The position numbers and the translations under genes were made by a program. From positions 1 through 45,849 of IMG/VR virus record IMGVR_UViG_3300031730_000191: 45,849 bases of DNA, one strand, 5' to 3'. The number at the start of each line of letters is the position of its first letter. The first letter of the stretch is position 1. This document shows, in pieces, positions 3,115-45,697 of this stretch. The stretch is from a virus. The notes beneath the pieces are model-generated. The model searched no databases. It was not told the origin of the DNA and was given only the letters and a program-made list of their open reading frames with translations.

Positions 3115-4561
3115 TCTTCGTCCTCTTCATAGCTTCCTTAAGAATTTCCTGTATGTCTCGTTTGGTCCGCACGCGCGCCAGCACGTCTTCGTCTATCGTC
3201 CGGTCCGCAACGATGTAATGAATAAAGACGGCGCGTTCGTGGCCGCTTTGCAGCTGGCGGACCGGGCCGATGCGTTCGATAATCTGGTCGTGGACTTCTG
3301 AGTCCCACCACAGCCCGAAAAAGCAAATGATATTTGTGACGTCCTGAAACCCATCAATGCCGTGGCCGGCCGACTGCGGGTGTGCGAACAGAACCGGAAT
3401 CAGTCCGGCCTTGAAGTCGTCTTCATCCTTCTGTGTCTTCAGCGCCCGGCCTTTCGGGAAGCGCTTAAGTAATCGCGCCAGGTCGGGCTTGAAGTGATAC
3501 GCGACAAGTACAGGCATTCCTGCCGCTTCCTCGACCACAGACTCGAGCGCGTCAAGCTTGGCGTCGTGGAGCTCGACCCATTGGCGGGTCTTACTGGCAG
3601 CCTCGGCGTATGTGTCGGGGGGATCCACGAACATGGCGCCGTTGCAAATCTGTAGGCACTTGATGGTCTTTGCGGCTGCGTTGTTCGCTTCAATTTCGTG
3701 ACCCTCGAGGACGGTAAACAATTCCTTTTCCATCTCTTTGTAATGCTTGCGCGCCTTGGGCGGCAGGTCGACCTTGATTACGTTCACGATCGGGTCGCGG
3801 AGGTCGAACCAGTCCTTTGCATTGAGACTGAGCGTTACGTCGCGCAGCCGGTCTTGTATCTCGGCTTGTGCGTGTGCCAACGGCTCCGACCCATAGCCGG
3901 ACTTCTTCGGATGGAACCAGCGCTGTATGAAACTCTCATGAGTCCGACCGAGCCGCTGTCCCTGGTCGATAAACCACGCGCAACCCCAAAGATCCTCTAT
4001 TCCGTTCGGCGCTGGTGTCCCGGTTAGCTCTATGAACCGATGCGACTTGAACGCCACACGCGCCAGGGATCCGGCACGCTTGCCGCCGGCGACGCGGATA
4101 AATTCCTTACCAAGCGTGGACTTTTGGACTGACGGCCGAGCGTTCTTTAGGCGCGTAGATTCGTCCGCGACAATCGTTCCGAATGGCCATTCGTCGCCGC
4201 ACTGCTCGACTAACCATGGCACGTTGTCGTAATTCATGGATACGGCCGCCAGGTTTCCGCGTAGCACTTCGTCTAACACGTCGGCTCGCTCCGCCGGATC
4301 GCCGACCATTGCACGCAAGCGGAATCCCTCGAGGTGCGACCACTTAGCAACTTCGTTAGGCCATGTCGACCGCGCGACGCGCAGCGGGCCGAGCACCAGC
4401 GCCGGCTTAGTCTCAAGTCCGACGTACCGCAGCGCGTCCAACGCCGTGAGAACGATAACGCCCTTGCCAAAACCCATGGGTAACCAGAGATTGCAACGCG
4501 GCACGTCGATAACGAACGGCGTCGCAATCTGCTGATATGGGCGTGGCACATAGTCGCGCAT
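3107..4561 (-). CDS. SNF2-type DEAD/H-box helicase
   Basis: 484-residue superfamily 2 ATPase. Visible motifs in order: a variant Walker A (LPMGFGKGV, about residues 28-36), motif Ia (VLGPLRVARSTW), Walker B as ADEST followed by RLKN, motif III TGTPAPNG, and in the C-terminal lobe motif V (QSAGHGID) and motif VI (QIIERIGPVRQ, with Arg fingers). Phages with this gene next to VRR-NUC, DUF2815 and a polymerase use it in the replication/recombination module, probably as a translocase or branch-remodelling helicase. Its ATG sits inside a copy of the 16-bp near-palindrome. Confidence 0.9.
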   Translation of the reverse strand: MRDYVPRPYQQIATPFVIDVPRCNLWLPMGFGKGVIVLTALDALRYVGLETKPALVLGPLRVARSTWPNEVAKWSHLEGFRLRAMVGDPAERADVLDEVLRGNLAAVSMNYDNVPWLVEQCGDEWPFGTIVADESTRLKNARPSVQKSTLGKEFIRVAGGKRAGSLARVAFKSHRFIELTGTPAPNGIEDLWGCAWFIDQGQRLGRTHESFIQRWFHPKKSGYGSEPLAHAQAEIQDRLRDVTLSLNAKDWFDLRDPIVNVIKVDLPPKARKHYKEMEKELFTVLEGHEIEANNAAAKTIKCLQICNGAMFVDPPDTYAEAASKTRQWVELHDAKLDALESVVEEAAGMPVLVAYHFKPDLARLLKRFPKGRALKTQKDEDDFKAGLIPVLFAHPQSAGHGIDGFQDVTNIICFFGLWWDSEVHDQIIERIGPVRQLQSGHERAVFIHYIVADRTIDEDVLARVRTKRDIQEILKEAMKRTKNV

Positions 4562-4576
4562 TTAGCTTTTGCTAAT
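4561..4576 (-). promoter_or_regulatory. Dispersed 16-bp site at the VRR-NUC/helicase junction
   Basis: Minus strand ATTAGCAAAAGCTAAA, then TG, so the helicase ATG begins at its last base. Two bases off the consensus; AA centre on the coding strand. Confidence 0.65.
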
Positions 4577-4861
4577 CGCCGCCACAGCCGAGAACCGCTC
4601 AACGAAGCTATCGACCAGAGCTTTACTGTCGATAATCACGACGGGAAACCCCATTCGCCACAGCTTGGCATGCATACGGGCCTGGCCTTTCCTGGCCGCC
4701 TTGCCGGTTGCTTTCGTCTCCACATAGCAGAGACGCGCGCCAGGGAACATCACAATCCGGTCGGGAACGTTCTTCTGTCCCGGGCTCACCCATTTGAAGC
4801 AGACGCCGCCGGCGGCCTTGACCTGGCGGACCAGGTAACGCTCTATTTTGTTTTCGCGCAT
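4562..4861 (-). CDS. VRR-NUC domain nuclease
   Basis: 99 residues with the VRR-NUC core: PDRIVMFPGARLCYVETKAT, carrying the PD-(D/E)xK-type catalytic Asp, Glu and Lys, then the helix ARKGQARMHAKLW. Stand-alone VRR-NUC proteins are structure-specific endonucleases, often for Holliday or flap DNA. It lies directly between a 69-residue unknown and the SNF2 helicase, a standard phage gene order, and probably works with that helicase. Confidence 0.9.
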   Translation of the reverse strand: MRENKIERYLVRQVKAAGGVCFKWVSPGQKNVPDRIVMFPGARLCYVETKATGKAARKGQARMHAKLWRMGFPVVIIDSKALVDSFVERFSAVAAISKS

Positions 4862-5071
4862 TTACTTGCGGTTCCGCTTGGCCAATGACATTCCGTTGCG
4901 CTTGAGACGTTCGTCAATGCGCTGCAGGGTCGCCGTCTGCTTACGGGCTTCCCGGCGGATGTCGGCCAGGAAAAGCACCGCTATACCATCGCGCGAAAGA
5001 AACGTAGGCTGTCCATCTAAAGTCCACTCGCCAGCATCGTCGCGGGTCGAGAATTTTCTAACGTCCGCCAT
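4862..5071 (-). CDS. Hypothetical protein, 69 aa
   Basis: The start at MADVRKFST is chosen because AGAGGGT lies six bases upstream. The C-terminal half is strongly basic (KRNGMSLAKRNRK) and contains a likely helix REARKQTATLQRIDERL. No family is recognised; association with DNA or with the adjacent nuclease is possible. The stop abuts the ATG of the VRR-NUC gene. Confidence 0.65.
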   Translation of the reverse strand: MADVRKFSTRDDAGEWTLDGQPTFLSRDGIAVLFLADIRREARKQTATLQRIDERLKRNGMSLAKRNRK

Positions 5072-5075
5072 AAAT

Positions 5076-7520: not shown

Positions 7521-7536
7521 TTTAGCGATTGCTAAT
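7521..7536 (-). promoter_or_regulatory. Dispersed 16-bp site before the HNH gene
   Basis: Minus strand ATTAGCAATCGCTAAA in the 44-base gap between the DUF2815 stop and the HNH start. Arms almost intact. A second imperfect half (GCAAATACTAAT on the plus strand at 7505) lies beside it. Confidence 0.65.
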
Positions 7537-9405: not shown

Positions 9406-9578
9406 GTGTCCATCACCCACAGAAACACGATGCGCCAGAAACAGACGCCGACGACCACGGCCGCGGTTACGGTATTGGCCAGCGCCAGGATCAGCCAGCA
9501 GATGAGAAGTAACGCGATCGTTAGGCACGTGGCAACCACAATGGCCTCTGTATACACACCCTTGAAAAAGGATTTCAT
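9402..9578 (-). CDS. Small membrane protein, 58 aa
   Basis: MKSFFKGVYTEA then two hydrophobic stretches (about 13-35 and 38-55). The start overlaps the stop of the upstream 106-residue gene. Together with the two following genes it forms a cluster of membrane hairpins of unknown purpose. Confidence 0.55.
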   Translation of the reverse strand: MKSFFKGVYTEAIVVATCLTIALLLICWLILALANTVTAAVVVGVCFWRIVFLWVMDT

Positions 9579-9895
9579 GCGTTCACCCTGTAGAGTTTGC
9601 GCGTCCGATCCGTCAGCGATTCCTCACAGATGCCTGCGAAGTCGCACACGGTCGCGCGCCATTTGTTGTGAATTCCTACCAGCCATCGGCGGGCCTCGGA
9701 TCGGGCTTTGACTGCGTTGCGCCAGTGCCTGACGTGCTCGACGTGGTCGGACCTGTTAGTGAAATCTGAGCGTTTGCGCAACGTCGGCAGCTTCGCTTGA
9801 GCGTCTGCTAATGCTTGAGACAAAACCGCGAACCACAGTTGCCGCTCCGGCGACCCTGTCCCTGTGTGCGCGTATCCTGTGTCGGTTGCGATCAC
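9575..9895 (-). CDS. Hypothetical protein, 106 aa
   Basis: Soluble, helical, Arg-rich. The part ARRWLVGIHNKWRATVCDF resembles a motif in small phage proteins of unknown role that share a W-F/V-C-x-x-A core. It lies directly after the alanine-rich gene with no gap. A weak match to the dispersed palindrome (TTGAGCGTCTGCTAAT at 9797) falls inside it. Confidence 0.6.
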   Translation of the reverse strand: MIATDTGYAHTGTGSPERQLWFAVLSQALADAQAKLPTLRKRSDFTNRSDHVEHVRHWRNAVKARSEARRWLVGIHNKWRATVCDFAGICEESLTDRTRKLYRVNA

Positions 9896-10320: not shown

Positions 10321-10336
10321 ATAAGCGTTTGCTAAC
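10321..10336 (-). promoter_or_regulatory. Dispersed 16-bp near-palindrome (leader of left operon)
   Basis: On the minus strand GTTAGCAAACGCTTAT, one base off a full two-arm match, lying between the leftward hairpin and the ribosome-binding site of the first left-operon gene. AA centre on the transcribed-sense strand. Confidence 0.7.
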
Positions 10337-10349: not shown

Positions 10350-10383
10350 GAAAACCCGACCATTTCGGGCCGGGTTTCTCTTC
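10350..10383 (-). terminator. Terminator-like hairpin in the leftward leader
   Basis: On the minus strand AAACCCGGCC, loop CGAAAT, GGTCGGGTTT, then TTCTTTTG: a ten-base-pair stem with one G-T pair and a short T-rich tail. It lies downstream of the probable leftward promoter and ahead of the replication operon. Leftward transcripts would need read-through or antitermination to reach those genes. Confidence 0.65.
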
Positions 10384-10415: not shown

Positions 10416-10443
10416 ATTAGCAAATGCTCACGGCCCTTGTCAA
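10416..10443 (-). promoter_or_regulatory. Probable leftward early promoter overlapped by an operator
   Basis: On the minus strand a perfect -35 TTGACA (10443-10438), a 16-base spacer, then GCTAAT as -10 (10421-10416; four of six consensus bases). The -10 is one arm of a copy of the dispersed palindrome (plus strand ATTAGCAAATGCTCAC, 10416-10431), so a protein bound there would block RNA polymerase. This is the clearest place where the site coincides with a promoter. Confidence 0.6.
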
Positions 10444-10663: not shown

Positions 10664-11098
10664 TCAGTCGATCAGATTTAGTATCTTCTCGGCGAGCTCG
10701 GCGTCTATCGTCCCGTGCTTGACCCCCTGTGAAAACACTATTTCGACCACGATCCCAAACTTAGTGTTAGTAAGAGTTTGCTTACGTGTCGATAGCAAAG
10801 AATTTACACAGGCCAGCGCTTCGCTAATGCCGGGCACATCACGGTTTACGGATCCCGGGACACGGTCTAGTCCGTCTAGTGAACCCGGGATGTCAAGCGA
10901 TCCGGATTTAAGCCCTAAACCCTTCTCAAACTTGCGCGCCGTCTTCTCAGTAAATGGCCGGATACCCTGTATCAACTGGCTTACCCAGCTAGATCCGGCC
11001 AGCTTCAACCGCTTGGCGACGGCCGCATGTCCGCCAAGCTCCTGTACAACCCTCTTCAAATTGGCCCGCCGAACGTCGTTCGGCATAATGGTACTCAT
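10664..11098 (-). CDS. Cro/C1-type HTH repressor (immunity repressor candidate)
   Basis: 144 residues. An Xre-like helix-turn-helix occupies the first half: NLKRVVQELGGHAAVAKRL, then SSWVSQLIQGIRPFTEKTARKFEKGLGL, where SSWVSQLIQG is the likely recognition helix. The C-terminal half has no LexA/C1 Ser-Lys peptidase signature, so SOS-triggered self-cleavage is not expected. A strong GAGGG precedes the ATG. It is transcribed leftward from a control region holding at least two copies of the 16-bp near-palindrome and faces the rightward genes divergently, the classic arrangement for a lysogeny repressor. That it binds the dispersed sites is inference. Confidence 0.8.
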   Translation of the reverse strand: MSTIMPNDVRRANLKRVVQELGGHAAVAKRLKLAGSSWVSQLIQGIRPFTEKTARKFEKGLGLKSGSLDIPGSLDGLDRVPGSVNRDVPGISEALACVNSLLSTRKQTLTNTKFGIVVEIVFSQGVKHGTIDAELAEKILNLID

Positions 11099-11193: not shown

Positions 11194-11209
11194 ATTAGCG
11201 TTTGCTAAC
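11194..11209 (-). promoter_or_regulatory. Operator candidate, full 16-bp near-palindrome
   Basis: Minus strand GTTAGCAAACGCTAAT; both arms intact. Located 96 bases upstream of the repressor start in the divergent region, with the AA centre facing the repressor gene. Confidence 0.75.
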
Positions 11210-11235
11210 GTACATACCCGGTGATGAGCAGAGAC

Positions 11236-11251
11236 GTTAGCATTTGCCATA
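11236..11251 (+). promoter_or_regulatory. Operator candidate, one-arm site
   Basis: GTTAGCATTTGCCATA: the left arm is intact, the right arm degenerate. It overlaps the CATAAT that may serve as -10 of the rightward early promoter. Confidence 0.55.
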
Positions 11252-11275
11252 ATCGGAATACAAGAGGGTACGGAC

Positions 11276-13749: not shown

Positions 13750-14434
13750 AGGTGCTCGACCTATTCTCGGGCATAGGAGGATTTTCCCTTGGACTTGAAC
13801 GCGCAGGAATGGAAACGACAGCGTTTGTGGAATCTGACAGCGTTTGTGGAATCTGACAGTAAGTGCCGTGCTGTGCTTGCTCGGCATTGGCCAAATGTGC
13901 CTTGCTTTCCGGATGTTAGGACACTAGATGTCACAGAAACAGTTGACGTTGTATGCGGCGGATTCCCTTGTCAGCCCTTCAGCACAGCCGCTCGAGGACG
14001 TAACAACGCCGTCGACCTGGTGGCCCGAGTTCCTCCGAATCATTGGCGACGTTCGCCCGCGTTGGGTTATCGCTGAGAACGTACCTGGTATCGGAGACGA
14101 CGGAGTTGACCGGGTGTCCCGCGATCTTGAACGCCAAGGCTTTGCCGTCTGGCCGGTTGAAATGGATACTTCACCGCCAGGGCGGAGCCGCGGCCGGCAG
14201 CGTATCTTCTGGCTGGCCTACTCCCACAGCAACGGCCAATCACGACGCGCCCAGCATGGCCAAATGGCCCGCATACGCCCTGTATCACCGTACCGCTGGT
14301 CGGACGACTCCGCGCCTGTGGGAATGGATGATGGGCTACCCGGACGGATGGACCGGCTAAAGCAATTGGGCAATGCGGTAACCCCTTACGCAACTGAAAT
14401 CATTGGACGAGCGATAATGCGGGCCGATCGATGA
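13746..14434 (+). pseudogene. Broken DNA (cytosine-5) methyltransferase
   Basis: The three reading frames together contain a full short C5-methyltransferase: motif I DLFSGIGGFSLGLERAG from the GTG at 13746, motif IV GGFPCQPFS (catalytic Cys), ENVPG (motif VI), GRQRIFWLAY (motif VIII) and QLGNAVTP (motif X). Two +1 lesions break it. A 19-bp tandem duplication (13817-13854) ends the first frame at once, and an extra G at about 14021-14025 (CTGGTGG where CTGTGG restores the frame to WPEFLRIIG) ends the second. Removing 20 bases would give about 222 residues, normal for the short phage type. As read, no active enzyme is made. Sequencing error cannot be excluded. Confidence 0.85.
13817..13854 (+). 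repeat. Perfect 19-bp tandem duplication
   Basis: GACAGCGTTTGTGGAATCT occurs twice in direct succession, followed by a further GACAG. Nineteen is not a multiple of three, so it shifts the methyltransferase frame. Loss of one copy would restore that part. Confidence 0.9.
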
Positions 14435-16524
14435 CGCCGGCCGACTACGAAGCCCTTGGCTGGGCGCTGGTGCCCATTCCCGCCGGCACTAAGGGGCCGA
14501 ACACGAAGGGCTGGAACCTCGCAGAGAACTGCCGCCTACCGCCAGGTTGGGCGGGGAACGTCGGCCTAGCGCACGCATACAGCGGCACGGCGGCGCTGGA
14601 CCTGGACCGGCTAGGCGATGCGGCCGTGTACCTTAAAACACACAATATTGACCTAGATTGTCTATTACAGGCTACAAACGCCGTGCGGATCGACTCCGGG
14701 CGGCCCGATCGCGCGAAGCTACTGTATAAATGTCCAGTAGTGTTGCGGTCCATGAAACTGGCTAAGGGGGCGCTTGAGCTCCGTTGCGCGACGGCCGACG
14801 GACTGACGGTGCAAGACGTCCTGCCTCCATCCATACACCCTGAGACGGGCAAGCCGTACGTTTGGATTGGGGATCCGGCGAAGCTACCTACCATACCTAC
14901 CGAACTTTTAGCGCTGTGGCAGCGATTAGCAAATGCTAATGTAAACCGAGAGTTGACGGAATCCGCAAATAGCGAACGGCCATCGATCGAGGAACTGCGC
15001 CGACTGCTGGCCAAGCACAGCCCTAACGCGCCATATGAGGCGGAGGAGGGGGACTGCTTCCTATTCACGGGCATGGCCGTCAGCGACGCCACGGGCAACA
15101 GTGCCGAGGGCTTCGCGCTGTGGGATGAGTTCTTATGGCCAGGCGTCAAGTACGCCGAAGGTAAGCCGCATCTGCGCGCCCATTGGCGTAGCTTCAAGGC
15201 CGGCGGCGGGATCACTTGGGCATGGCTGAAGAAGGGCGTACCCGTCGACGCGTCGGACTTCTCGCTGCTGGCCGAGGTGGATGATATTTCGCTAGACGAT
15301 GACGAAATTACCCAACAGCCTGCCGTTGCGTTGGGTAACGCGCTGGCGCGCGACGCCAACGACTGGCCAGTCCTGCGCCGGAAGAAGAACGGGCGCATAG
15401 AATCCAATTACCTGAACATCCATAGCGCCGTCGCCTGTTCCTCATTCTGTCAAATGCATATCGGCTATGACACGTTCCGCGCGGAGCTCATGCAAGCGCC
15501 GGCCGGCTCCGAGCGCGGCCAGTTGCGCCCGTTCGCAGACAATCACTACGGCCAGCTGCGCCGGGCGCTCGAGCAGCGCGGCTTCTACTCCACCAGCGTG
15601 GATAACGTCCGCCAGGCCGTGGCAGAGGTCGGAGCGGCTAATACCTTTGACTCGGCGCAGGATTGGCTCGAAAGCCTGTCCCACGACGGCAGGGAACGCT
15701 GTGTGACGTTCCTAACTACCTACTTCGGGGCGCCGGACACCGACTACACGCGCGCTGTATCGCTGTACCTGTGGACGGCGCTTGCCGCGCGGGTGATGTC
15801 GCCAGGGTGCCAGGCTGACATGGCCGTGATCATGGTAAGCAGCCAGGGTGAGCGGAAGTCCACGGGTATCTCGAGCCTGGTGCCGCGGCCGGAACAGTTC
15901 GTAGAGTTGAACTTGGACGAAAGCGACGACGATCTAGCCAGGAAGATGTCCGGTTGCCTGATTGGTGAACTGGCGGAGCTCCGCGGCCTGGCTACCCGGG
16001 ACTTGGAGTCGATTAAGTCCTTCATTACCCGCAAACACGAAAAATGGGTGCCTAAGTACAAGGAATTCGCCAACACATACCCGCGGCGATTGATTTTCAT
16101 CGGCACGACGAACAAGCGTGAGTTCCTGGCCGACGAAACGGGCGAACGTAGGTTCTTACCCGTGGATGTGGTCAAGGCTAACCCGGAGGCTATACGTCGG
16201 GATCTTGAGCAACTGTGGGCCGAGGCCAGAGAACTATACGACGTGATCGGGATAGCTTGGCAGAGAGCCGAGGCGCTGGGTCGGATAGCCGTTAAGGCGT
16301 ACAAGGTTTCGGACGCGTGGGACGATTCCATAGCTATGTGGTGCGACGCACATTTGGACTGCGGGTTCACTACTACGGACGTCGCGACGGGCGCTCTTGG
16401 GATCGATGTGAAGCACGTAAACCGTGCGACAGAGATGCGCATTGCACGCGTGTTGACGGGTATCGGATATACCAAAAAGGCGGTCAAGGAACACGGGGTT
16501 TTTCGTCGGCTATGGTCATTATGA
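14431..16524 (+). CDS. Primase-helicase (Prim-Pol plus VapE-type ATPase)
   Basis: 697 residues in one chain. The N-terminal bifunctional primase/polymerase domain shows ALVPIPAGTKGP, then ALDLDRL with the metal-binding D-x-D (about residues 56-58). The middle resembles a primase C-terminal domain (PriCT-2: EELRRLLAKHSP, GDCFLFTGMAVSDATG). The C-terminal virulence-associated-E ATPase has Walker A SSQGERKSTG, a LIGELAEL Walker B and sensor region TTNKREFLADETGERRFLPV. It would unwind and prime DNA at the adjacent origin just downstream. ATGA overlap with the methyltransferase remnant. A perfect copy of the 16-bp site lies inside the gene. Confidence 0.9.
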   Translation: MTPADYEALGWALVPIPAGTKGPNTKGWNLAENCRLPPGWAGNVGLAHAYSGTAALDLDRLGDAAVYLKTHNIDLDCLLQATNAVRIDSGRPDRAKLLYKCPVVLRSMKLAKGALELRCATADGLTVQDVLPPSIHPETGKPYVWIGDPAKLPTIPTELLALWQRLANANVNRELTESANSERPSIEELRRLLAKHSPNAPYEAEEGDCFLFTGMAVSDATGNSAEGFALWDEFLWPGVKYAEGKPHLRAHWRSFKAGGGITWAWLKKGVPVDASDFSLLAEVDDISLDDDEITQQPAVALGNALARDANDWPVLRRKKNGRIESNYLNIHSAVACSSFCQMHIGYDTFRAELMQAPAGSERGQLRPFADNHYGQLRRALEQRGFYSTSVDNVRQAVAEVGAANTFDSAQDWLESLSHDGRERCVTFLTTYFGAPDTDYTRAVSLYLWTALAARVMSPGCQADMAVIMVSSQGERKSTGISSLVPRPEQFVELNLDESDDDLARKMSGCLIGELAELRGLATRDLESIKSFITRKHEKWVPKYKEFANTYPRRLIFIGTTNKREFLADETGERRFLPVDVVKANPEAIRRDLEQLWAEARELYDVIGIAWQRAEALGRIAVKAYKVSDAWDDSIAMWCDAHLDCGFTTTDVATGALGIDVKHVNRATEMRIARVLTGIGYTKKAVKEHGVFRRLWSL
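14925..14940 (+). promoter_or_regulatory. Dispersed 16-bp palindrome, perfect copy inside the primase gene
   Basis: ATTAGCAAATGCTAAT: both seven-base arms perfect around AA. It lies in coding sequence for LANANV, far from any gene start, which argues against an ordinary promoter operator. Confidence 0.8.
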
Positions 16525-34305: not shown

Positions 34306-34718
34306 AGACCGCGCACGACGTTGTTACCGCGGCGCGCGAATGGCTCGGCGTGCGGTTCCTGCACCAAGGCCGTACCCGCAATGGCGTCGACTGCATCGGC
34401 TTCGTGGCCGCACTGGCCGCCGAGCTCGCGGCGCCCCTATTCCTTAAAAACCTTCCGCACAACTACGCCAGGAACCCGCAGGCGTTGCTCGAGGACGGTT
34501 TGCGCATGCTTGCGCGGCCTGCGTCGCTCGAGGCCGGCGCGTTGGTACTCATCAAATGGCCGCTGTCGCCGCACGCCTCGCACGTCGGAATCTACACGGG
34601 CACGTCTTTGATTCATTGCTATGAAGCCGTCGGCCGCGTCGTTGAGCACGGCTATACGACTCCCTGGCCGGAACGTACGGTCAGTCTGTGGCGCATCCCT
34701 GGCGTGAAATATGAGTAA
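34302..34718 (+). CDS. NlpC/P60 cell-wall peptidase of the tail tip
   Basis: 138 residues; GTG start overlapping the previous stop. Catalytic Cys in RNGVDCIGFVAAL (about residue 30) and His in HASHVGIYTG, with LIHCYEAVGRVVEHGY following. As in gene-transfer-agent gp14, it should open the peptidoglycan locally during DNA injection. Confidence 0.9.
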   Translation: MKTAHDVVTAAREWLGVRFLHQGRTRNGVDCIGFVAALAAELAAPLFLKNLPHNYARNPQALLEDGLRMLARPASLEAGALVLIKWPLSPHASHVGIYTGTSLIHCYEAVGRVVEHGYTTPWPERTVSLWRIPGVKYE

Positions 34719-37700
34719 CGTAGGCCAGGGCGTACTGATTGTCGCCGGCACGATTATCGGCGCGTATTTCGGCTCCCCGCAGTTGGGCTTCGTGCTCGGC
34801 AGCCTGGCCGGCAATGCACTATTCCCTACACAACTACCCGGCCAGTCCGGCCCGCGACTCACGGATAACCAGACGACCAGTAGCGTCGTAGGTTCCCCTG
34901 TATCGATCCTCTTCGGTACGGCGTCTCTGTCCGGGACGTTCATGTGGCTTGCGCCTATCGTCGAGACGACGAACACGCAACACGTCGGCGGCAAGGGCGG
35001 CCCGACGCAAACCAACACGACATACACTTACACGCAATCGGTGGCCGTCGGCCTGTGTGAGGGGCCGATAGGCGGCCTCCTGCGCGTGTGGGAAAACGGC
35101 ATGTTGGTTTACGACATCCGCGTGCAGCAAGCCGGCGAGAGCGACACGGACTACGCAAACCGGCTGACCGTGGCGGCCGTCTACGCCGAAACATTCACGC
35201 TGCACTTAGGTGACGATACCCAAGTCGCGGACGCCACTATCGAATCGATTGAGGGTATGGGGAACGTCCCCGGATTCCGTGGGCTGGCGTATATCGTCTA
35301 TCCCGACCGCAAGCTGCAGGAGACGCAGGCGCTACGGCATCCCTCATTCAAATTCGAAGTATTCAACGGTGGCGTTGGCGCGTGCGTCGACTCTAGCGAG
35401 TATTCGAACGAAGTTCTTTTCAAGTGGGAGGCTCCGGGATCCCTTGATCCGCGCCACCCGCGCGGCACATTCACCTACCAATTCTCCCCTAGCATGGGCG
35501 GTAGTCCCGGCCCGGTACGCAGCACCCTCGAGGCGGCCATAGCAGACGGATCATTACGAAGTGACCTGTACGGATGGAGTCCGAGCGGTGGCGCGGGCGG
35601 CCCGTATTCGCCATGGTTGGCCATTCCTTCTTTCGTGGGCAATGAATTGCAAGTGTCCATGTTCTTCAATACCCTTGCTCCGGGATCGATGACCACGGCG
35701 CCTTTAGCATTTCCCGCCAATGCGTGCGACCTGACTCACGCAAACCCGAATGTATATTGGACAGGCGCCTATTATTCCAGCCCGACAACGCTGGCTTTTA
35801 GTAATCACGGCGTCTTTTCTTTAGTGGGGCCAGGGCTAGGAAATATCGGGTCCTGCCCTGGCTATGGAATGGATCTCGAATGTAAACTTGACGACCAGAT
35901 CAATGTTATCCGTGCGGCGGGCGCTCCTTCTGACCCGTGCTTCGGATTGCCCGCGGCGCCGATTATTGGTTACTGCATTCGGGGTGACGGCAAATACGTC
36001 CGAGGGGGAGACTGGACGTTAGATAATTCGCGTAGCTATAAAGTGCTAGCGGCTACGCTACTAAATACAGGCGTTGGCATAGACGTTGTCACGCAATACC
36101 CGGCTAACCCCTGTCTGCCGCCGGGATCTCCAGACGACAACCCGACATTCTGGACCGCGGCATATAACGCCGCTGTTACCGCGGGCGATGTACCGTCCGG
36201 CTGGACATATGGGGTTGATTACCCCTTTACTCAGGGATTTGCATGGACTGTCGACATGCGAGTCTGCGAAGCGGCGGGCGGCGGCGTTAGCCTCGGTACT
36301 ATCATTCGCGCAATCTGTTTGCGCTGTGGCCTAACGGACGTCGACGCGACCGACATGGATACGGTGTTCGTTGACGGCTACGCGGTGTCCAGCGTCTCCG
36401 CCGGCCGCGACATCCTGACGCCGCTGCGCTCGGTAGGCTTCTTCGACTGCGTCGAGTCTGGTGGTACGCTCAAGTTCGTGGCGCGCGGCAAGGCGATTGT
36501 GGCCAGCCTCGAGCAGGACGATTTCGGTGCGTATGATGGTAGCGCAACGGGCGGCACTCCCGGCCCGTCGATAACGACCGTTAAGGCGCAGGATCCGGAC
36601 CTGCCGCTACAGACCCGCGTTCACTACTTCGCCACCTCGCGCGACTATGAGGCCGGAGAGCAACTAAGCCCGACGCGGCTAACCACGACGGCCGTTAACG
36701 TGGTGGATGTCGAACTGGCCGTGTGCATGAACGACACTCAGGCCGCCAAGATCGCGGATGTCATATGGTCGGACGCATGGGCGGAGCGGTGGAGCGGCAC
36801 GCTAGCTGTCGATCAGGCGCAATCACAACTTGAACCTGGAGACTGTATCGAGGTTCCTGTGGACGGTGTGACGCGCCGCATACGCATCGTCAACGAGACG
36901 ATAGCCTCCGGCGTGCTGCGGACCCTGAACTACGTCCGCGACGACGACGGCGCCTACGTGTCGCACGCCGTGGCCGCCGTGCCTAACCGGGTTCCGCAGA
37001 AGCTTAAACTTCTAAGCGCGACCGACTTGGAACTGCTCGACTTGCCCGCGCTGCTCGACAGCGATAACGATGCGGGTATCTACGCGGCTGCGCGCGGGTC
37101 GGCCCTGGCCGGTAACGCCTGGACCGGCTGCGTCATCTTCCGCAGTGCCGACGGTGGCGCCACGTTCGCACAACTGGCCAGCATCACGACACCCTCCACC
37201 ATTGGCGCCCTGACGACGGGCGTCACGCCGTCGGACTGGCACACATGGGACGACATCACGACTATTACAGTCGACGTGCCCGCGGGCGTTACATTCGAAA
37301 GTCGCACAGACGCCGCAGTGCTGACCGGCGCCAACTCGGCAGCCATGGGAGCTAATGGTCGGTGGGAAATCGTCCAGTTCGCCAACGCAACGCAATTGAC
37401 TTCTACGCAATGGCGATTAAGTCGGCTGCTTCGTGGCCGGCGCGGAACTGAACACAACATAAGTTCAAGCGCCGCGGGTGACAAGTTCGTAATGGTGTCG
37501 ACGGGTGGCCTTGCGCGGTTGCCGTTGCAGACATCCGAGATAGGTGCTAGCCGGATATACAAGGCCGTGACTATCGGCGCGTCATATGCGTCCGGCATAG
37601 ACCAGCCCTTCGCCGGCCAGGGCGTGGCGCTGCGGCCGTTCTCGCCAGTTCTCCTGACGGCAGAGCGCGACACGGCAGGCGATATAACGTTCCACTGGAC

Positions 37701-37977
37701 GCGTCGTAGCCGGTTGGGCCGTACGCTAATGTCTGGTGTAGATATCCCGCTAGGTGAGGCGTCAGAGGCTTTCCAGGTGGACATATACGCGCAGGATAGC
37801 CCGCACACAGTCGTGCGCACACTAGCGGTTACGACCACGACGGCCGTTTACACAGCGGCTCAACAATCGACCGACTTCGGTTCGCATGCGGAAGGTCATG
37901 TAATGGTGGCCGTGTACCAAATGTCGGCGCTGGTAGGCCGAGGCACTCCCGACTTTCAACTTCTGACGATCAGCTAG
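34711..37977 (+). CDS. Central tail tip / receptor-binding-associated protein (J-like)
   Basis: 1088 residues. The N terminus (GVLIVAGTIIGAYFGSPQLGFVLGS) and SSVVGSPVSILFGTASLSG start the phage tip-protein family related to gene-transfer-agent gp15 and lambda J. The conserved core continues through LGTIIRAICLRCGLTDVD and the fibronectin-like C-terminal region with RRLLRGRRGTEHN-type sequence (SRLLRGRRGTEHN). Residues about 225-520 are an extra, cysteine-containing domain of lower GC not expected between the PSFKFEVFNGG strand and the LGTIIRAI helix. That part probably varies with receptor. Confidence 0.85.
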   Translation: MSNVGQGVLIVAGTIIGAYFGSPQLGFVLGSLAGNALFPTQLPGQSGPRLTDNQTTSSVVGSPVSILFGTASLSGTFMWLAPIVETTNTQHVGGKGGPTQTNTTYTYTQSVAVGLCEGPIGGLLRVWENGMLVYDIRVQQAGESDTDYANRLTVAAVYAETFTLHLGDDTQVADATIESIEGMGNVPGFRGLAYIVYPDRKLQETQALRHPSFKFEVFNGGVGACVDSSEYSNEVLFKWEAPGSLDPRHPRGTFTYQFSPSMGGSPGPVRSTLEAAIADGSLRSDLYGWSPSGGAGGPYSPWLAIPSFVGNELQVSMFFNTLAPGSMTTAPLAFPANACDLTHANPNVYWTGAYYSSPTTLAFSNHGVFSLVGPGLGNIGSCPGYGMDLECKLDDQINVIRAAGAPSDPCFGLPAAPIIGYCIRGDGKYVRGGDWTLDNSRSYKVLAATLLNTGVGIDVVTQYPANPCLPPGSPDDNPTFWTAAYNAAVTAGDVPSGWTYGVDYPFTQGFAWTVDMRVCEAAGGGVSLGTIIRAICLRCGLTDVDATDMDTVFVDGYAVSSVSAGRDILTPLRSVGFFDCVESGGTLKFVARGKAIVASLEQDDFGAYDGSATGGTPGPSITTVKAQDPDLPLQTRVHYFATSRDYEAGEQLSPTRLTTTAVNVVDVELAVCMNDTQAAKIADVIWSDAWAERWSGTLAVDQAQSQLEPGDCIEVPVDGVTRRIRIVNETIASGVLRTLNYVRDDDGAYVSHAVAAVPNRVPQKLKLLSATDLELLDLPALLDSDNDAGIYAAARGSALAGNAWTGCVIFRSADGGATFAQLASITTPSTIGALTTGVTPSDWHTWDDITTITVDVPAGVTFESRTDAAVLTGANSAAMGANGRWEIVQFANATQLTSTQWRLSRLLRGRRGTEHNISSSAAGDKFVMVSTGGLARLPLQTSEIGASRIYKAVTIGASYASGIDQPFAGQGVALRPFSPVLLTAERDTAGDITFHWTRRSRLGRTLMSGVDIPLGEASEAFQVDIYAQDSPHTVVRTLAVTTTTAVYTAAQQSTDFGSHAEGHVMVAVYQMSALVGRGTPDFQLLTIS

Positions 37978-39057: not shown

Positions 39058-39073
39058 ATTAGCAAATGCTAAA
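39058..39073 (+). promoter_or_regulatory. Dispersed 16-bp site before the lysis genes
   Basis: ATTAGCAAATGCTAAA, 15 of 16 bases, in the 71-base gap between the fibre and holin-like genes. An ATG inside it is in frame with the holin-like gene but has no ribosome-binding site. Confidence 0.8.
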
Positions 39074-39101
39074 CTTACCCCCTCATAACTACGGACCCGA
39101 A

Positions 39102-39272
39102 ATGACCGACGAACAGCGCCGATCCGAAGGTAAAGAAGTCGTCAAGGAAGCGCTCAAAGAGTGGCTTGACGACAAATTCCTATCGTTCGGTAAATGGTCA
39201 GCCGCGGCCGTGGCGGCCTCGTTCCTGGCGGCCGTCGTGTACTTCATATTTTGGGTGGAGTTCAAGAAATGA
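39102..39272 (+). CDS. Holin-like single-pass membrane protein, 56 aa
   Basis: MTDEQRRSEGKEVVKEALKEWLDDKF is a charged helix, followed by one membrane segment (AAAVAASFLAAVVYFIFWV) and a lysine end. Length, topology and place directly before the endolysin suggest a holin or pinholin, but a membrane-recruitment role is equally compatible. The start at MTDEQ is preferred over the in-frame ATG at 39069, which lies in the regulatory site. Confidence 0.6.
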   Translation: MTDEQRRSEGKEVVKEALKEWLDDKFLSFGKWSAAAVAASFLAAVVYFIFWVEFKK

Positions 39273-39622
39273 GTATCTCACTCGGCGAAGCCCAACGGTT
39301 GCATGTGAGGTGCTTTTCCAAACTGTTAAATTGGGGTTTCGCGCAAGGGTATGAATTCACGTGGGGCCAGGCGCTGCGCACGCAAGCCGAGGCATTGGCG
39401 AACGCCAAGAGCGGCGCCGGAATAGCGCACAGCCTGCATTTGCTGAAGCTGGCCGTCGATATCAACCTGTTTAAAGACGGGCTGTATCAGCCGACTACCG
39501 AAGCGCATCGGCCGCTAGGCACGTACTGGAAGACGCTACACCCTCTTTGTTGTTGGGGTGGCGACTTCACAACCCGGCCCGATGGCAATCATTATTCCAT
39601 CACGTTCAACGGAATCAAGTAA
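39269..39622 (+). CDS. Endolysin, M15-type D-Ala-D-Ala peptidase
   Basis: 117 residues from MSISLGEAQRLH after GGAG. Metal site: SLHLLKLAVDINLF (S-x-H-x-x-x-x-A-x-D, with Leu replacing the usual Gly) and WGGDFTTRPDGNHYSI (D and H) match VanY/M15 carboxypeptidases used as endolysins by many phages. No signal sequence, so release needs a holin. Overlaps the holin-like gene by four bases. Confidence 0.85.
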   Translation: MSISLGEAQRLHVRCFSKLLNWGFAQGYEFTWGQALRTQAEALANAKSGAGIAHSLHLLKLAVDINLFKDGLYQPTTEAHRPLGTYWKTLHPLCCWGGDFTTRPDGNHYSITFNGIK

Positions 39623-39642
39623 CGTCAACCGGGGGTTTACCT

Positions 39643-40083
39643 TTGACAACGATCGCGTACAAAGACGGTGTTATTGCTGCCGACTCATGCGCGACCGATG
39701 AAGGAAGCGAAACCGCTGGCGCCGTGAAGACTCAGTGCGAGAAACTTTTCCGCAAGATCGTCGACGGACGCAATGTGATTATTGCCACGGCCGGAGAGAC
39801 GGCGCCCGGCTTGACGTTCGTGCAATGGTACGGTAGCGGCAAGAAACGCCCATCGCGCCTAGCAGACGCCGACTTCACAGTGCTAGTGCTTGACGATGGC
39901 GTGCTGTACGAGTCCGGCCCGTGGTGCGTTCTCGAGAAGGTAATGGCGCCGTTCTACGCGATCGGGAGCGGCCGCAAGTGCGCGCTGGCGGCCATGGCGT
40001 GCGGTAAGACAGCGCTAGAGGCTGTGGAAGTCGCATCCCTCTTCGACCCGTATACCGCCGGCCCGTTCGTCTGGATGACATAA
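39643..40083 (+). CDS. Ntn hydrolase (HslV/proteasome-beta-like) protein
   Basis: 146 residues. A TTG start after GGGGG gives M-TTIAYKDGVIAADSCAT, the pattern of HslV and proteasome beta subunits, where Thr2 becomes the N-terminal nucleophile after Met removal. G-AVKTQCEKLFRK supplies the conserved Lys region, and IGSGRKCALAAMACGKTALEAVEVAS matches the C-terminal helix (G-S-G...A...A). No HslU-like ATPase is encoded nearby, so it may act alone or use host HslU. The upstream in-frame ATG would include a long non-homologous extension and destroy the Thr nucleophile, so the TTG is preferred. Confidence 0.75.
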   Translation: MTTIAYKDGVIAADSCATDEGSETAGAVKTQCEKLFRKIVDGRNVIIATAGETAPGLTFVQWYGSGKKRPSRLADADFTVLVLDDGVLYESGPWCVLEKVMAPFYAIGSGRKCALAAMACGKTALEAVEVASLFDPYTAGPFVWMT

Positions 40084-40090
40084 GGACCAT

Positions 40091-40894
40091 ATGACTAAGC
40101 CTAAAGCTAGTCCGCGAATCCTCTGTTTAGATATCGAAACAAGTCCTATAGAGGCTTACACATGGGGCATATGGGACGTCAACGTAAGCCTGGATCAAAT
40201 CAAAACCGAATGGACGATCCTTAGTTACGCGGCCAAATGGGTGGGCGAACGGGGAATGATTTACGAGGACACCTCCGGCCGCGGCGCTGGCAAGGTGCGC
40301 GACGACAAGAATCTCATGCAAGGGCTGTGGGATCTTCTGAACCTAGCGGACATTGTCGTGGCGCAGAACGGCCAACGCTTCGACGTCAAGAAGATCAACG
40401 CCAGGCTCATCATGCACGGCTTCGGGCCGTATTCGCCTATCCGGATCGTCGATACGATGCTGGTAGCGAAGAAGCACTTCGGCTTCACGTCAAACAAACT
40501 CGAGTGGATGTCCAAGTACCTGACGGACACGCCGAAGTCCAAGCACAAGAAGTTCCCCGGCTTTGAACTGTGGCTAGAGTGTCTCAAGGACAACCCGGCC
40601 GCGTGGGCCGAAATGAAGAAATACAATTGCCAGGACGTGCGCGCCACGGAAAAGCTATACATCAAACAGCGACCGTGGATCGCCGGCCATCCGAATATGG
40701 GCGCCTACAATCCGTCGCACGAAGAGAAGTGCACGAACTGCGGTAGCACGAATGTGACTAAGTACGGGTACAGCCTGCTCCAGCAAGGCAAGTACCAGCG
40801 TTACACGTGCGGGGACTGTGGCGCATGGTCACGTGGCAAGATCAACTTGATATCACTCACGAATCGAAAGGCGCTTTTGGCGCCGAAGGTTTAG
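40091..40894 (+). CDS. DEDD-type 3'-5' exonuclease with C-terminal zinc ribbon
   Basis: 267 residues; AAGGA before the ATG. Exo I CLDIETSP (about residues 12-19), Exo II AQNGQRFDVKKIN and Exo III YNCQDVRATEKL place it in the RNase H-like DnaQ/YprB group. The C terminus has C-T-N-C-G...C-G-D-C-G, a four-cysteine zinc ribbon of the type in transposases and transcription factors. It is separate from the polymerase, which has its own proofreading domain, and lies in the late lysis region. A role in degrading host or competing DNA or RNA is possible but unproven. Confidence 0.8.
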   Translation: MTKPKASPRILCLDIETSPIEAYTWGIWDVNVSLDQIKTEWTILSYAAKWVGERGMIYEDTSGRGAGKVRDDKNLMQGLWDLLNLADIVVAQNGQRFDVKKINARLIMHGFGPYSPIRIVDTMLVAKKHFGFTSNKLEWMSKYLTDTPKSKHKKFPGFELWLECLKDNPAAWAEMKKYNCQDVRATEKLYIKQRPWIAGHPNMGAYNPSHEEKCTNCGSTNVTKYGYSLLQQGKYQRYTCGDCGAWSRGKINLISLTNRKALLAPKV

Positions 40895-40905
40895 CAAATG
40901 CTAAT
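40890..40905 (+). promoter_or_regulatory. Dispersed 16-bp site, possible promoter overlap
   Basis: TTTAGCAAATGCTAAT, 15 of 16 bases, spanning the exonuclease stop. TTGGCG (40877-40882) lies 17 bases before GCTAAT, so a weak promoter coinciding with the site is possible. Confidence 0.7.
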
Positions 40906-42208: not shown

Positions 42209-42210
42209 AA

Positions 42211-42671: not shown

Positions 42672-42692
42672 CCTCTGGTGAGTGGGTCGGGA

Positions 42693-42878: not shown

Positions 42879-43039
42879 ACCTCAATATCTCCTATCGGGT
42901 GCGCGGCCCGGTGCTCCTGCATCCACCTGACGTGTATCTCCCTGAATTCGTTCTCATGCGCCGGGCACATTTCTAGCGTGGCTTCCCGGCCGACGAAGTT
43001 GATGCAGCCGCAAGGCAGGCTAAACGTGGCCGGCTTCAT
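42875..43039 (-). CDS. Small zinc-binding-type protein, 54 aa
   Basis: MKPATFSLPCGCINFVG then CPAHENEFREIHVRWMQEHRAAHP: a C-x-C and C-x-x-H arrangement suggests a metal site. ATGA overlaps on both sides tie it to the beta-helix gene upstream and the Cys-rich gene downstream. Confidence 0.55.
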   Translation of the reverse strand: MKPATFSLPCGCINFVGREATLEMCPAHENEFREIHVRWMQEHRAAHPIGDIEV

Positions 43040-44202
43040 CCCGTGTAGCCTTGCAGAAGGTCCAAGGCGAGAATGCTATTCGGCATGCCTCCACGCGGAA
43101 GCAACACTGGCGGGATTGTGCCCGCGCGGTTCGCGATCTTCGCTTGGATGGCCATTGTTCGATAGGCCGCCGGGTCGCTTGGCGTTCGCAATCCCCATGC
43201 CGCGGGCTTCCCGTCCGTCGTCATGATCGATGTGTCTATCAGGAAAAACGCGTTCTTAATCACTCCGCCGAGGTCGGATACGCCGTCCGCTAGAATATCC
43301 ATTCCGCCATGCAGGCGCCTCGAGTAGTACCCGTCGACAAGTGACCCGTAGCCGAGCTCAACCTTAAGGCTCAAGCAACTGCCGCTGGTCGACAGCCTGG
43401 CCAGCGGATCGCCGACGTACTGGCCGAGGTCGACAACGTCCCGTATGGTGGACTTGCCGTGTACATAGAAGAGGTGGGGCGGTGCGAACCAGGAGGCCGC
43501 TGCGTCAGGCAAGTCTCCGTAGCGCCGACTCACAACCCGCGTGTATGACGCCTCCGCGGACCGGCCGACAAACCCCATCATAACGCCGTCGAAATCTACG
43601 TCGGACACCTCGAGCGAAGGGAAGGTATAGGGTGCGTGCGCGCCGGCGTTCAATCCCATTGCCTCACCTAGAGCGTACGCAGGATCAAGAGCCACGGCAG
43701 TTATAACCAGCCCTGTGGCGGGTACTCCGGGATCCGCGTATACCTTGAGTCCCGGTAGAGAGACGACCGAGTTACCCCGAATCGAAATCAGGGCGCTAGT
43801 GTTGGTCGGCCCGCACCAGACGGTCCCGCCTCCGCGGCCTGTGTATGGGTTCATGCCTGTTTTAACCAGGTAGTCCCTTGCACAAACATCTGTCCAGCGG
43901 CCAGCGGCCGACGGCGTAACCAGAGGGGTTATGCCCGTATAGTGGATCTTCGCGCCGCGGATCGTTCCGCTGGCGTTCATGGCGCACATAGCCGGAAACC
44001 CTACGCTGTCCACGTTCAAAAGACCTTGTGGGGTAAACGTGATATCGAAGCCGGGCGGGAGGAACAACCCCTTGGTCGGATCGGATCCCATGACAGATGT
44101 GACGGGCAAGTCCCACGCGATTGGCTGCTTGAGGTCTAGCGCGGCTTGAAGGGCCGACGGGTCGGTGCCGGTCATGCCGGGGCACTGGCTAAGTGTGATC
44201 AT
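43036..44202 (-). CDS. Probable beta-helix (pectate-lyase-like) protein
   Basis: 388 residues. It opens like tailspike/pectate-lyase-like domains: CPGMTGTDPSALQAALDL, VTSVMGSDPTKGLFLPPG, then repeated short beta segments (FPAMCAMNASGTIRGAKIHYTG, LISIRGNSVVSLPGL, FPSLEVSDVDFDGVMMGF). This suggests a right-handed parallel beta-helix able to bind or cut polysaccharide. It is unusual for such a protein to lie on the leftward strand among tiny coupled genes rather than with the tail genes. No signal peptide is visible. Confidence 0.6.
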   Translation of the reverse strand: MITLSQCPGMTGTDPSALQAALDLKQPIAWDLPVTSVMGSDPTKGLFLPPGFDITFTPQGLLNVDSVGFPAMCAMNASGTIRGAKIHYTGITPLVTPSAAGRWTDVCARDYLVKTGMNPYTGRGGGTVWCGPTNTSALISIRGNSVVSLPGLKVYADPGVPATGLVITAVALDPAYALGEAMGLNAGAHAPYTFPSLEVSDVDFDGVMMGFVGRSAEASYTRVVSRRYGDLPDAAASWFAPPHLFYVHGKSTIRDVVDLGQYVGDPLARLSTSGSCLSLKVELGYGSLVDGYYSRRLHGGMDILADGVSDLGGVIKNAFFLIDTSIMTTDGKPAAWGLRTPSDPAAYRTMAIQAKIANRAGTIPPVLLPRGGMPNSILALDLLQGYTG

Positions 44203-44622: not shown

Positions 44623-44852
44623 TCGAAACTTTTCCCGGGGATGTCGAGTTCGCTGGGCATCGCGTCAAAACCTGCCAGGACTTCCCGAGCTCGCAGCGTT
44701 GCCGCGCGCCGCTCGAGGAAGGTCTGCCCGCCAGGCGCCGGAGTAACCAGCACCCGCAGCGCCTCGGCTACGGCTTGCGAATGGATCTTGATTAGCGCAA
44801 GGTCGCGGAGCCGGATTGCTGTGTAGGAGTCAAGAAGGTCTTCGGCGGTCAT
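44619..44852 (-). CDS. Hypothetical protein, 77 aa
   Basis: [22 protein letters not shown] continues as a mainly helical, Arg/Ala-rich protein ending DIPGKSFE. No family recognised. Coupled by ATGA to the pentapeptide-repeat gene upstream and to the mini-protein downstream. Confidence 0.6.
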
Positions 44853-45502
44853 GATTTTTTCTCCTTCTTCGGCGTCCAGTGCTTGGCGTGGATCTTTATC
44901 AGCGCGATTGCTGCGGTGTATTCCTTGGCGTGAACGGTCGTACCGTGAGTCTCTTTGACGGCGGCCGTGAACTTGGCCAGCGTGTTCCAGAAACATCCGG
45001 CCTTGACGTACACGCCCGCATCGGTTAGCCACACTTGCAGATTGTCGTTGCGCGACCCGAACGGGCCGAGTTCCAAGTAAGGGCGTTCACCGACCGTCGT
45101 TAGCTTTTCACCATCCGCGCCACGGAGGTACGCGCCACGGAGGTCCGCGCCACCGAGGTCCGCGCCACCGAGGTCCGCGCCACCGAGGTCCGCGCCACCG
45201 AGGTCCGCGCCACGGAGGTACGCGCCACGGAGGTACGCGCCACGGAGGTCCGCGCCACGGAGGTCCGCACCACGGAGGTACGCGCCACCGAGGTCCGCGC
45301 CACGGAGGTACGCGCCACGGAGGTCCGCGCCACCGAGGTACGCGCCACGGAGGTACGCGCCACGGAGGTCCGCGCCACCGAGGTACGCGCCACCGAGGTA
45401 CGCGCCACCCTTAACGGCGGCCTGTACGCAGAGTTTCAGGGATTCGGTTTCGAGTGAGAACAGAATGCTGGCGGACCAGCGCGATTTGATTTCGAATTTC
45501 AT
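44849..45502 (-). CDS. Pentapeptide-repeat protein
   Basis: 217 residues. Residues about 32-131 are some 20 consecutive pentapeptides of the form (R/G)GA(D/Y)L, enough for about five coils of the right-handed quadrilateral beta-helix. The centre position alternates between Asp and Tyr. Pentapeptide-repeat proteins such as MfpA and Qnr mimic DNA and bind gyrase, so topoisomerase modulation or other DNA mimicry is a reasonable hypothesis, not shown here. A separate C-terminal domain ([22 protein letters not shown] tail) follows. ATGA overlaps with both neighbours. Confidence 0.85.
45114..45412 (-). repeat. 15-bp tandem coding repeats
   Basis: About 20 copies of a 15-base unit (plus strand GCGCCACGGAGGTAC and one- to three-base variants: CGG/CCG and TAC/TCC alternate). 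It encodes the pentapeptides. Near-identity between units implies recent expansion by slippage or recombination, so copy number may vary between isolates. Confidence 0.9.
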
Positions 45503-45669
45503 GACCGCTCAACCCTGACCAGTCCGTAGCCGAGTTCCTTTCCTTCTGCCTGCAACTGCCAACTGTGTTTCTTGGCTTTGTTGACGGTCTTGCAATCGGC
45601 GACGATCTCGCGGCTTTCGGCCTCTAGGATCATGTGGCCTTTCCGGATGTATCTGCATTCTCGTTTCAT
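45499..45669 (-). CDS. Hypothetical protein, 56 aa
   Basis: GAGGG precedes the [25 protein letters not shown] continues with [23 protein letters not shown]; basic, probably alpha/beta. No family recognised. The stop overlaps the pentapeptide-repeat start (ATGA), making this the first gene of the coupled chain. Confidence 0.6.
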
Positions 45670-45681
45670 ATACCCTCTTCA

Positions 45682-45697
45682 GTTAGCGTTTGCTTAT
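45682..45697 (-). promoter_or_regulatory. Dispersed 16-bp site at the head of the coupled chain
   Basis: Minus strand ATAAGCAAACGCTAAC, one base off in one arm, directly before GAGGG of the 56-residue gene and overlapping the stop of the gene before it. AA centre on the coding strand. Confidence 0.75.

Follow-up and report, generated by a model that had tools for sequence, protein, structure and literature searches.

The virus genome held as IMG/VR record IMGVR_UViG_3300031730_000191 raises the question of why a 16-bp near-palindrome, ATTAGCAAAYGCTAAT, should recur along its whole length. The window analyzed here is the entire record of 45,849 bases. A sequence-only reading of it had described 13 full copies of the element and eight weaker ones, and had likened them to the stoperators of Cluster A mycobacteriophages, dispersed and oriented repressor sites that silence a prophage. 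We regard an operator array with stoperator-like silencing as the best explanation of this pattern and as a moderately probable one.

Enrichment, placement and orientation of the dyad

At up to three mismatches, ATTAGCAAAYGCTAAT has 25 matches in the window against a mean of 0.17 and a largest count of 2 in 100 dinucleotide shuffles; these matches were counted on both strands, so that palindromic copies may count twice. At up to two mismatches, 14 distinct positions are found against a mean of 0.015 and a maximum of 1 for 990 dyads in which arm and centre were permuted. Expectations for single copies were obtained from shuffled sequence with a matrix built from the same 13 full copies. All 13 are present where they had been reported, each with a score level reached at most 0.01 times in shuffles. 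Shuffles, permuted dyads and matrix scores together reject chance or base composition as the source of the array, and the enrichment that had been anticipated is borne out.

The 16-bp dyad has the consensus G-ATTAGC-AAAY-GCTAAT. Across the 13 copies, 9 of the 16 motif columns are invariant and three further columns are conserved at 90% or more; the three inner arm pairs are invariant. The extra upstream G occurs in nine of the ten dispersed copies (1.03 bits versus 0.97 for the 95% null of flank columns). It is the sole flanking column above that null, and no -10 or -35 column is conserved at the copies.

The eight weaker copies fared less evenly. Those at 9797 (9797-9812, minus strand, within the leftward ORF (open reading frame) 9575-9895) and at 32297 (32297-32312, minus strand, within the late gene of ORF 30462-32756) score above chance, with 0.02 and 0.03 expected, respectively. 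The other six do not stand by score: four are at chance level, namely 11236 (0.52 expected), 12442 (0.37), 1181 (0.77, located at 1173) and 42661 (0.94, located at 42656), while 27218 is noise with about 21 expected at such a score, and 26252 is not found among matrix rows scoring at least 6.0. For 11236, the position over a PR-like -10 makes a real copy plausible. More weak matches, at 30292 (0.17 expected) and 7501 (0.39 expected), were left out of the count.

Ten of the strong copies lie outside the immunity region, and every transcription unit holds one or more of them. On the minus strand, the copy at 4561-4576 lies at the junction between the helicase gene and that of a nuclease which we take to be of the VRR-NUC type (labeled endonuclease in PHROG); within it, GCTAAATG carries the stop codon of the first gene and runs into the ATG of the gene that follows. 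The copy at 7521-7536 (minus) occupies the gap between the SSB and HNH genes, and that at 45682-45697 (minus) stands 5' of the right-end cluster of leftward genes. On the plus strand, 14925-14940 falls within the primase gene, where it encodes RLANANV in the stretch that separates the Prim-Pol and PriCT_2 domains, 17146-17161 near the end of ORF 16784-17185, and 18367-18382 within the large terminase gene (terL), where it encodes Leu57. Further along the same strand, 23096-23111 sits between the stop of the major capsid gene and a strong intrinsic terminator, whose stem-loop (23119-23144, plus strand) follows directly 3'. The copy at 29182-29197 (plus) lies in a gap of the late operon and that at 39058-39073 (plus) in a late-region gap, the mechanical ORF 39066-39272 that starts inside this site being taken as spurious. 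Finally, the TAG of 40890-40905 (plus) is the stop codon of an exonuclease-like gene (40091-40894).

This placement agrees with the description of copies in gaps, at stop/start junctions and inside primase and terminase. The gene map was edited by hand: five mechanical ORFs were removed or trimmed, a small ORF was added and one start was shifted. On this map, 8 of the 13 full copies are fully intergenic versus 9.8% of the genome (P = 7e-6), and 10 lie between genes or no more than 10 bp from a gene end versus 14.2% of the genome (P = 6.5e-7). With the unedited ORF list, five remain intergenic (7521, 10416, 23096, 29182 and 45682) versus 7.3% (P = 0.0016). Among the dispersed ten, five are intergenic (P = 0.0015), the number rises to seven when a margin of 10 bp from a gene end is allowed (P = 1e-4), and three lie within genes.

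The copies are also oriented. The AA centre had been reported to lie mostly on the strand of local transcription, and we find it on the sense strand in 11 of the 12 full copies with a defined direction, the exception being 10416; 11194 sits between divergent units and hence has no defined local direction. Outside the immunity region, the sense strand carries the A-rich centre in every one of the ten copies (two-sided P = 0.002). The least certain assignment is 7521 (centre AATC), which depends on 2 versus 3 mismatches. When the significant weak copies are added to these ten, 11 of 12 are syn, with 9797 syn and 32297 antisense to its gene.

The candidate repressor and its probable operator

An integrase gene (1-996, minus strand, phrog_1) suggests that the phage is temperate. 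The immunity repressor candidate is a 144-aa product encoded at 10664-11098 on the minus strand (phrog_12107/5736, transcriptional repressor/regulator). It has an N-terminal helix-turn-helix (HTH) of the lambda-CI-type superfamily, with recognition region SSWVSQLIQGIRP, and a helical C-terminal domain; AlphaFold predicts four N-terminal and three C-terminal helices (mean predicted local distance difference test score 85, predicted template modeling score 0.51). The protein has no Pfam match, and a C-terminal S24 (LexA-like) self-cleavage domain was not found in view of its 144 aa, the missing Pfam match and the all-helical model of that part. The closest solved HTH domains by profile are those of PaaR2 and Salmonella-phage Rep (PDB). 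A fold search returned related HTH proteins and no PDB match at E <=0.001. The matches listed by the PHROG search, the PDB sequence search and the fold search (50 of 280 for the last) include repressors of the CI, Cro, Stl and Salmonella-phage types; a Cluster A repressor is not among them.

Both sides of the repressor gene carry copies at promoter-like sequences. A full operator copy at 11194-11209 (minus strand, from motif scan and score) lies in the divergent region between the repressor and the rightward operon. The weaker copy 42 bp away (11236-11251, minus) overlaps the extended -10 of a PR-like promoter (TGAGCA 11225-11230, N17, TGC-CATAAT 11248-11253) that ranks in the top 0.8% of random positions. 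To the left, the copy at 10416-10431 (plus), identified by motif and promoter match, coincides with a PL-like leftward promoter on the minus strand (TTGACA 10443-10438, N16, GCTAAT 10421-10416; top 0.2% of random positions). Another copy, 10321-10336 (minus), stands 95 bp from 10416, just 5' of the first leftward gene (start about 10306) and beyond a terminator at 10378-10351. This intrinsic terminator (10351-10378) thus sits between both PL-side operators, and transcripts from PL would therefore have to read through it; either antitermination or another start on the PL side is possible.

The association extends to related proteins. A TTAGC- or TTCGC-type dyad with at most two arm mismatches lies within 330 bp upstream of 19 of 28 repressor homologues (15 of 24 in a first set and 4 of 4 in an added set). 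Null fractions range from 0.007 to 0.167 for the 15 of the first set, the added four carrying none, and the higher values arise partly because short records resample the same operators. The count treats near-duplicates apart (L138/L139, G005/L014, L256/L257 and L016/L017) and leaves out Pseudomonas phage Atpa001; without L057 and L379, which had been fetched by the motif, the dyad is upstream of 17 of 26 homologues. In L256 and L257, near-identical loci fetched by protein, an exact ATTAGCAAACGCTAAT accompanies a SYLSQ helix. A change of the half-site from TTAGC to TTCGC goes along with an SF(L/I)SQ helix in G003, G004 and L251. This pairing is partial in ACF1, which has mixed arms, and the arms of PCA1 are TTTAGC/TTTTGC. 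Given the copies at the PL- and PR-like promoters and the dyads upstream of homologous genes, the phage's own HTH repressor very probably uses the dyad as its operator. By the same operator association, this repressor probably also binds the dispersed copies.

The homologue searches brought further observations. L138 and L139 (Gammaproteobacteria / Proteobacteria contigs from metagenome-assembled genomes (MAGs)) have the repressor HTH apparently fused in frame to what is presumably a formyltetrahydrofolate deformylase-like partner, with TTAGCAACTGCTAA upstream; a domesticated phage repressor is possible. L060 encodes two divergent HTH repressor homologues at about 499-1289, with an exact 16-mer some 6 kb away. 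L103, which has the exact motif, encodes a SYLSQILNGHR-helix protein that we assume to resemble an S24-type repressor. In L103, as in L358, L359, L360, L363, L370 and L378, the exact motif is accompanied by another copy about 840-865 bp off, and such pairs resemble OL/OR around a repressor gene.

Proposed stoperator-like silencing and its alternatives

The proposed mechanism has two parts. Near its own gene, the repressor would block initiation at the PL-like (10416, 10321) and PR-like (11236, 11194) promoters. At the ten dispersed copies, the same repressor would bind transcribed DNA and stop the elongating polymerase of leaky transcripts. The whole prophage would then be silent and superinfecting copies would be shut off. 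If the repressor does bind the dispersed copies, we consider an elongation block there likely.

Copies inside genes bear on the strength of selection for the sites. The motif has one stop-free frame, read as (R/K)LANA in 14925 (primase), 17146 and 18367 (terL). Among the best 80 of 147 terL homologues, which are 55-62% identical, residue 57 is Arg in 76 and never Leu, the usual peptide being DLKRAK; in this phage it is Leu via the TTA codon of the site, a codon that serves for 5.6% of the Leu residues in the ORF list used. None of these 80 homologues is fewer than five mismatches from the site at the same place. Taken together, the exchange of Arg for Leu57 and the distance of all 80 homologues suggest that this lineage probably acquired the terL site, at a residue that is otherwise conserved, drift being an alternative for this single gene. 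For terminase, this points to selection that may have been strong enough to prevail over conservation of the residue. In the primase homologues found, the alignment does not reach across the 14925 site.

The relatives of the phage are proteobacterial. Five of them (ACF1, PCA1, G001, G003 and G004) share replication genes and a homologous repressor and hold few scattered sites, many in gaps. A fixed dyad at up to one mismatch occurs 12 times in the window (1.5 expected) and 8 times in ACF1 (1.07 expected). This fixed family dyad is the stricter count, as the matrices refined for the relatives against dinucleotide shuffles were fitted on their own matches and flatter them. We set aside de novo gapped-word and palindrome searches of the relatives with a simple background, whose output was dominated by tandem repeats and by GC-rich words of codon origin. 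When viral contigs were scanned for GATTAGCAAAYGCTAAT, 35 contigs were listed with one match each in their stretch, and no other viral contig was listed with two exact copies of this 17-mer; a motif scan of genome contigs gave two MAG loci. In four relatives an operator lies directly 3' of the helicase gene (PCA1 26082, ACF1 21493, G003 30395 and G004 20946). In the window none is reported there, and a copy stands at the helicase start instead (4561).

Several observations weigh against stoperator-like silencing. The upstream dyad is absent from 9 of the 28 repressor homologues (G002, G007, IFTN9, CF63a, L016, L017, L060, L250 and L252), six of which have a clearly different recognition helix (G007, L016, L017, CF63a, IFTN9 and L252). 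Two motif-only DNA scans listed 144 loci, three of which (L057, L060 and L379) encode a repressor homologue, versus none of 160 loci retrieved with terminase or capsid; the difference is small, and chance probably accounts for most of the 144, many of which lie in AT-rich contigs. With the degenerate family dyad at up to two mismatches, the window is not enriched (25 versus 20 expected). The fixed dyad with perfect arms occurs 8 times in the window (0.03 expected) and at most twice in each of the other 24 records, which include fragments and near-duplicates, and orientation bias is not evident in the relatives; such a dense and oriented array is thus, to date, peculiar to the phage described here. 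Searches with the DNA polymerase, a tail protein, the terminase and the major capsid found no close relative: the polymerase returned one relative, G010, without an array, the tail protein (34711-37977) returned none, and the best 80 of 560 major capsid relatives include no locus with two matches at up to two mismatches. The promoter-like sequences considered next count on the same side.

The most serious alternative, though in our estimate an unlikely one, is that these are ordinary multi-promoter operators, in which the copies control local non-consensus promoters and no elongation block is involved. Phages P1 (C1) and SPbeta (MrpR) provide precedents. We compared sigma70-like matches at the copies with random positions using the E. 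coli consensus, which may not be that of the host. Two of the ten dispersed copies overlap promoter-like sequences, 17146 (0.8%) and 29182 (below 0.1%): the former overlaps a TTGACA and so may be promoter-associated, and the latter may share bases with the -35 of a promoter (TTAGCA N17 TATAAA with TG). In the relatives ACF1, PCA1, G001, G003 and G004, 9 of 23 sites (9 of 34 site-strand tests) pass a 1% cut, and the difference from 2 of 10 is not significant (Fisher P = 0.43). Several of the relatives' operators fall inside a -35/-10 spacer, and copies in such a spacer or over a promoter are found at ACF1 55607, 7704 and 266, G003 44935 and PCA1 52010 and 52039, the last two sharing one promoter. 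This test left out G003 44234, 2969, 9160 and 135, G004 32942, 42601 and 4988, G001 37063 and 30384, PCA1 52004 and others of low rank. Conversely, 8 of the 10 dispersed copies in the window lie outside the top 8% of random positions, and the upstream G is the only conserved flank. The main argument against promoters is where the copies lie: at 4561 there is no space ahead of the ATG, a terminator comes at once after 23096, and 14925 and 18367 lie deep inside genes.

An improbable alternative is a repressor sink or dose counter, in which strong sites titrate the repressor and tie lysogeny to phage copy number, their position being of minor importance. Many dispersed copies are indeed nearer the consensus than the PL and PR copies, and in P1, according to the passages of the source, extra C1 operators lowered lysogeny at low multiplicity of infection (PMC8546580). 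A pure sink would require neither the orientation of ten copies out of ten, nor the placement in gaps and junctions, nor a site at a conserved terminase residue. It is more improbable still that the copies are sites of another phage or host DNA-binding protein, such as a late activator, a partition protein or a packaging factor, which happen to resemble the operator. The assignment to the repressor is drawn from sequence and the dispersed sites carry the extra conserved G, which would suit a different binder; against this, the 16-bp sequence matches that of the immunity-region operators, the motif goes with the repressor family across contigs, and the products scanned (part of the ORFs) gave no Par-like match. 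Least probable is an RNA element with a 6-bp stem and an AAAY loop acting in transcripts in the manner of a boxB antitermination hairpin. Such an element would likewise need to be oriented with transcription, and it would suit the position of 23096 just before a terminator and the folding of the copies (two perfect copies at -4.2 kcal/mol, all six folded copies beating most of their own shuffles). It finds no support in compensatory arm changes, absent from 11 distinct copies whose outer three pairs are broken in 6, 1 and 3 of 11, in any other conserved flanking box, or in the occurrence of the same DNA dyad at promoter-like positions here and upstream of homologous repressors.

The remaining genes give the context of the array. 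Leftward replication genes occupy the left part (helicase, VRR-NUC-type nuclease, DNA polymerase, HNH, SSB and exonuclease), and after the repressor come rightward primase, terminase and portal genes, then more late genes. Directly 5' of the primase, a 168-aa ORF (13928-14434) has a cytosine-5 DNA methylase-like match. The late region and right-end cluster encode an HslV-peptidase-like product (39547-40083) and a pectate-lyase-like product (43036-44202). A pentapeptide-repeat protein (44849-45502) belongs to the leftward cluster after the late genes, and the DNA of its gene has a 15-base period, with 18 GAGGT pairs at spacing 15 in 45125-45380.

Comparison with known systems

Cluster A phages such as L5, Bxb1 and TipsytheTRex use one repressor at many sites in promoters and short intergenic spaces, mostly oriented with transcription and mostly away from promoters; whole-prophage silencing at many transcribed sites is experimentally established for them, and similar systems occur in other actinobacteriophages, as described in passages of two reports (PMC6550527; PMC9283540). 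The array described here is alike in having 13 strong sites, ten of them dispersed and 8 of those 10 without a promoter-like sequence by the E. coli consensus, which may not be the host's, and in the orientation of sites with transcription, in short gaps or near gene ends. By placement and orientation, it may work like the L5 stoperator system. The likeness proposed by the sequence-only reading therefore stands for the genome-wide oriented array and its placement in gaps, junctions and genes, and does not extend to the symmetry of the site nor, as it seems, to the type of repressor. L5 has 20-30 sites per genome, of 13-14 bp and without dyad symmetry, bound by a monomer with a Stoperator domain, in the same passages (PMC6550527; PMC9283540). 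This phage, unlike L5, has fewer sites (13), each a 16-bp dyad rather than an asymmetric 13-14 bp site, and an ordinary-looking HTH repressor.

That no well-described proteobacterial equivalent exists, as had been suggested, does not hold: with P1 C1 and the T1-type repeats, proteobacterial phages already offer examples of repressor-like sites that are dispersed or oriented. The passages on P1, a proteobacterial temperate phage, describe 22 widely dispersed operators for one repressor, C1, with an asymmetric 17-bp consensus tied to the repression of particular lytic genes (PMC8546580). The present array resembles it as a dispersed array in an integrase-bearing phage, with repressor binding here deduced from operator association, and differs in being a dyad-symmetric 16-mer (consensus compared by reading).

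T1-type phages (T1, TLS and Stevie) carry 16-21 oriented repeats of 21-22 bp, mostly intergenic, which passages of two reports already compare with stoperators (PMC4319613; PMC11447400). Orientation with transcription, mostly intergenic placement and a half-site TAGCA are common to both. Unlike the present phage, those phages are virulent, the passages on them name no binder, and the T1 dyad has a spacing 3 bp longer. The T1 consensus ATAGCACnnnTTGnTAAAA has 24 matches in T1 (2.0 expected) and was rejected as the motif of this phage, with one match in the window at up to three mismatches (0.39 expected); conversely, the motif of this phage is not enriched in T1 (one match, 1.14 expected). In T1 (L354), one oriented repeat (36444-36462) lies between the regulator gene ST23 (35979-36431) and ST22. 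ST23 has a weak Cro/YdaS-like HTH below the Pfam cut-off, and its likeness to the repressor family is short and weak (hhalign probability 27% over 26 columns). ST23 may be the binder of the T1 repeats, and the same HTH/TAGCA logic may explain the oriented repeats of T1-type phages.

Other systems share single features. In SPbeta, according to passages of the source, the master repressor MrpR acts on SPBRE elements repeated through the prophage (PMC10516654), as proposed here; unlike the candidate repressor, MrpR has a tyrosine-recombinase fold, and its ten peaks in chromatin affinity purification sequencing (ChAP-seq) are in promoter regions (PMC10516654). The cyanophages N-1 and A-1 have 21 and 43 motifs, respectively, which lie mostly between ORFs and for which a role as stoperators was one of the suggestions made (PMC4916379); unlike here, these motifs are not consistently oriented along flanking genes, the host group is another, and the passage names no repressor. 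PaaR2 (of CP-933P) and Salmonella-phage Rep, both lambda-CI-type HTH repressors, are like the repressor candidate in the HTH by profile. The PaaR2-protected region holds 18-bp palindromes with consensus GTTTAGTAA, the paper leaving the precise site open, and its operators cluster around PRM/PR and PL, with no dispersed array described in the passages (PMC8630535).

A literature search on Acidovorax phage repressors and operators found nothing. Within the literature searched, the combination of a dyad-symmetric HTH operator, consistent orientation, mostly no evident promoter and a site in a conserved terminase codon is new. We tentatively propose, on the sequence evidence above, a convergent stoperator system in a phage of Proteobacteria, in which a dyad-binding HTH repressor would exert an oriented elongation block at at least ten sites, with sites in primase and terminase codons that would cost a conserved terminase residue. 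This raises the question of whether, and through which asymmetry (the AAAY centre or the upstream G), an ordinary HTH repressor could block elongating polymerase in one orientation only. If the proposal is true, prophage-wide silencing would have arisen more than once, without need for the monomeric repressor architecture of Cluster A.

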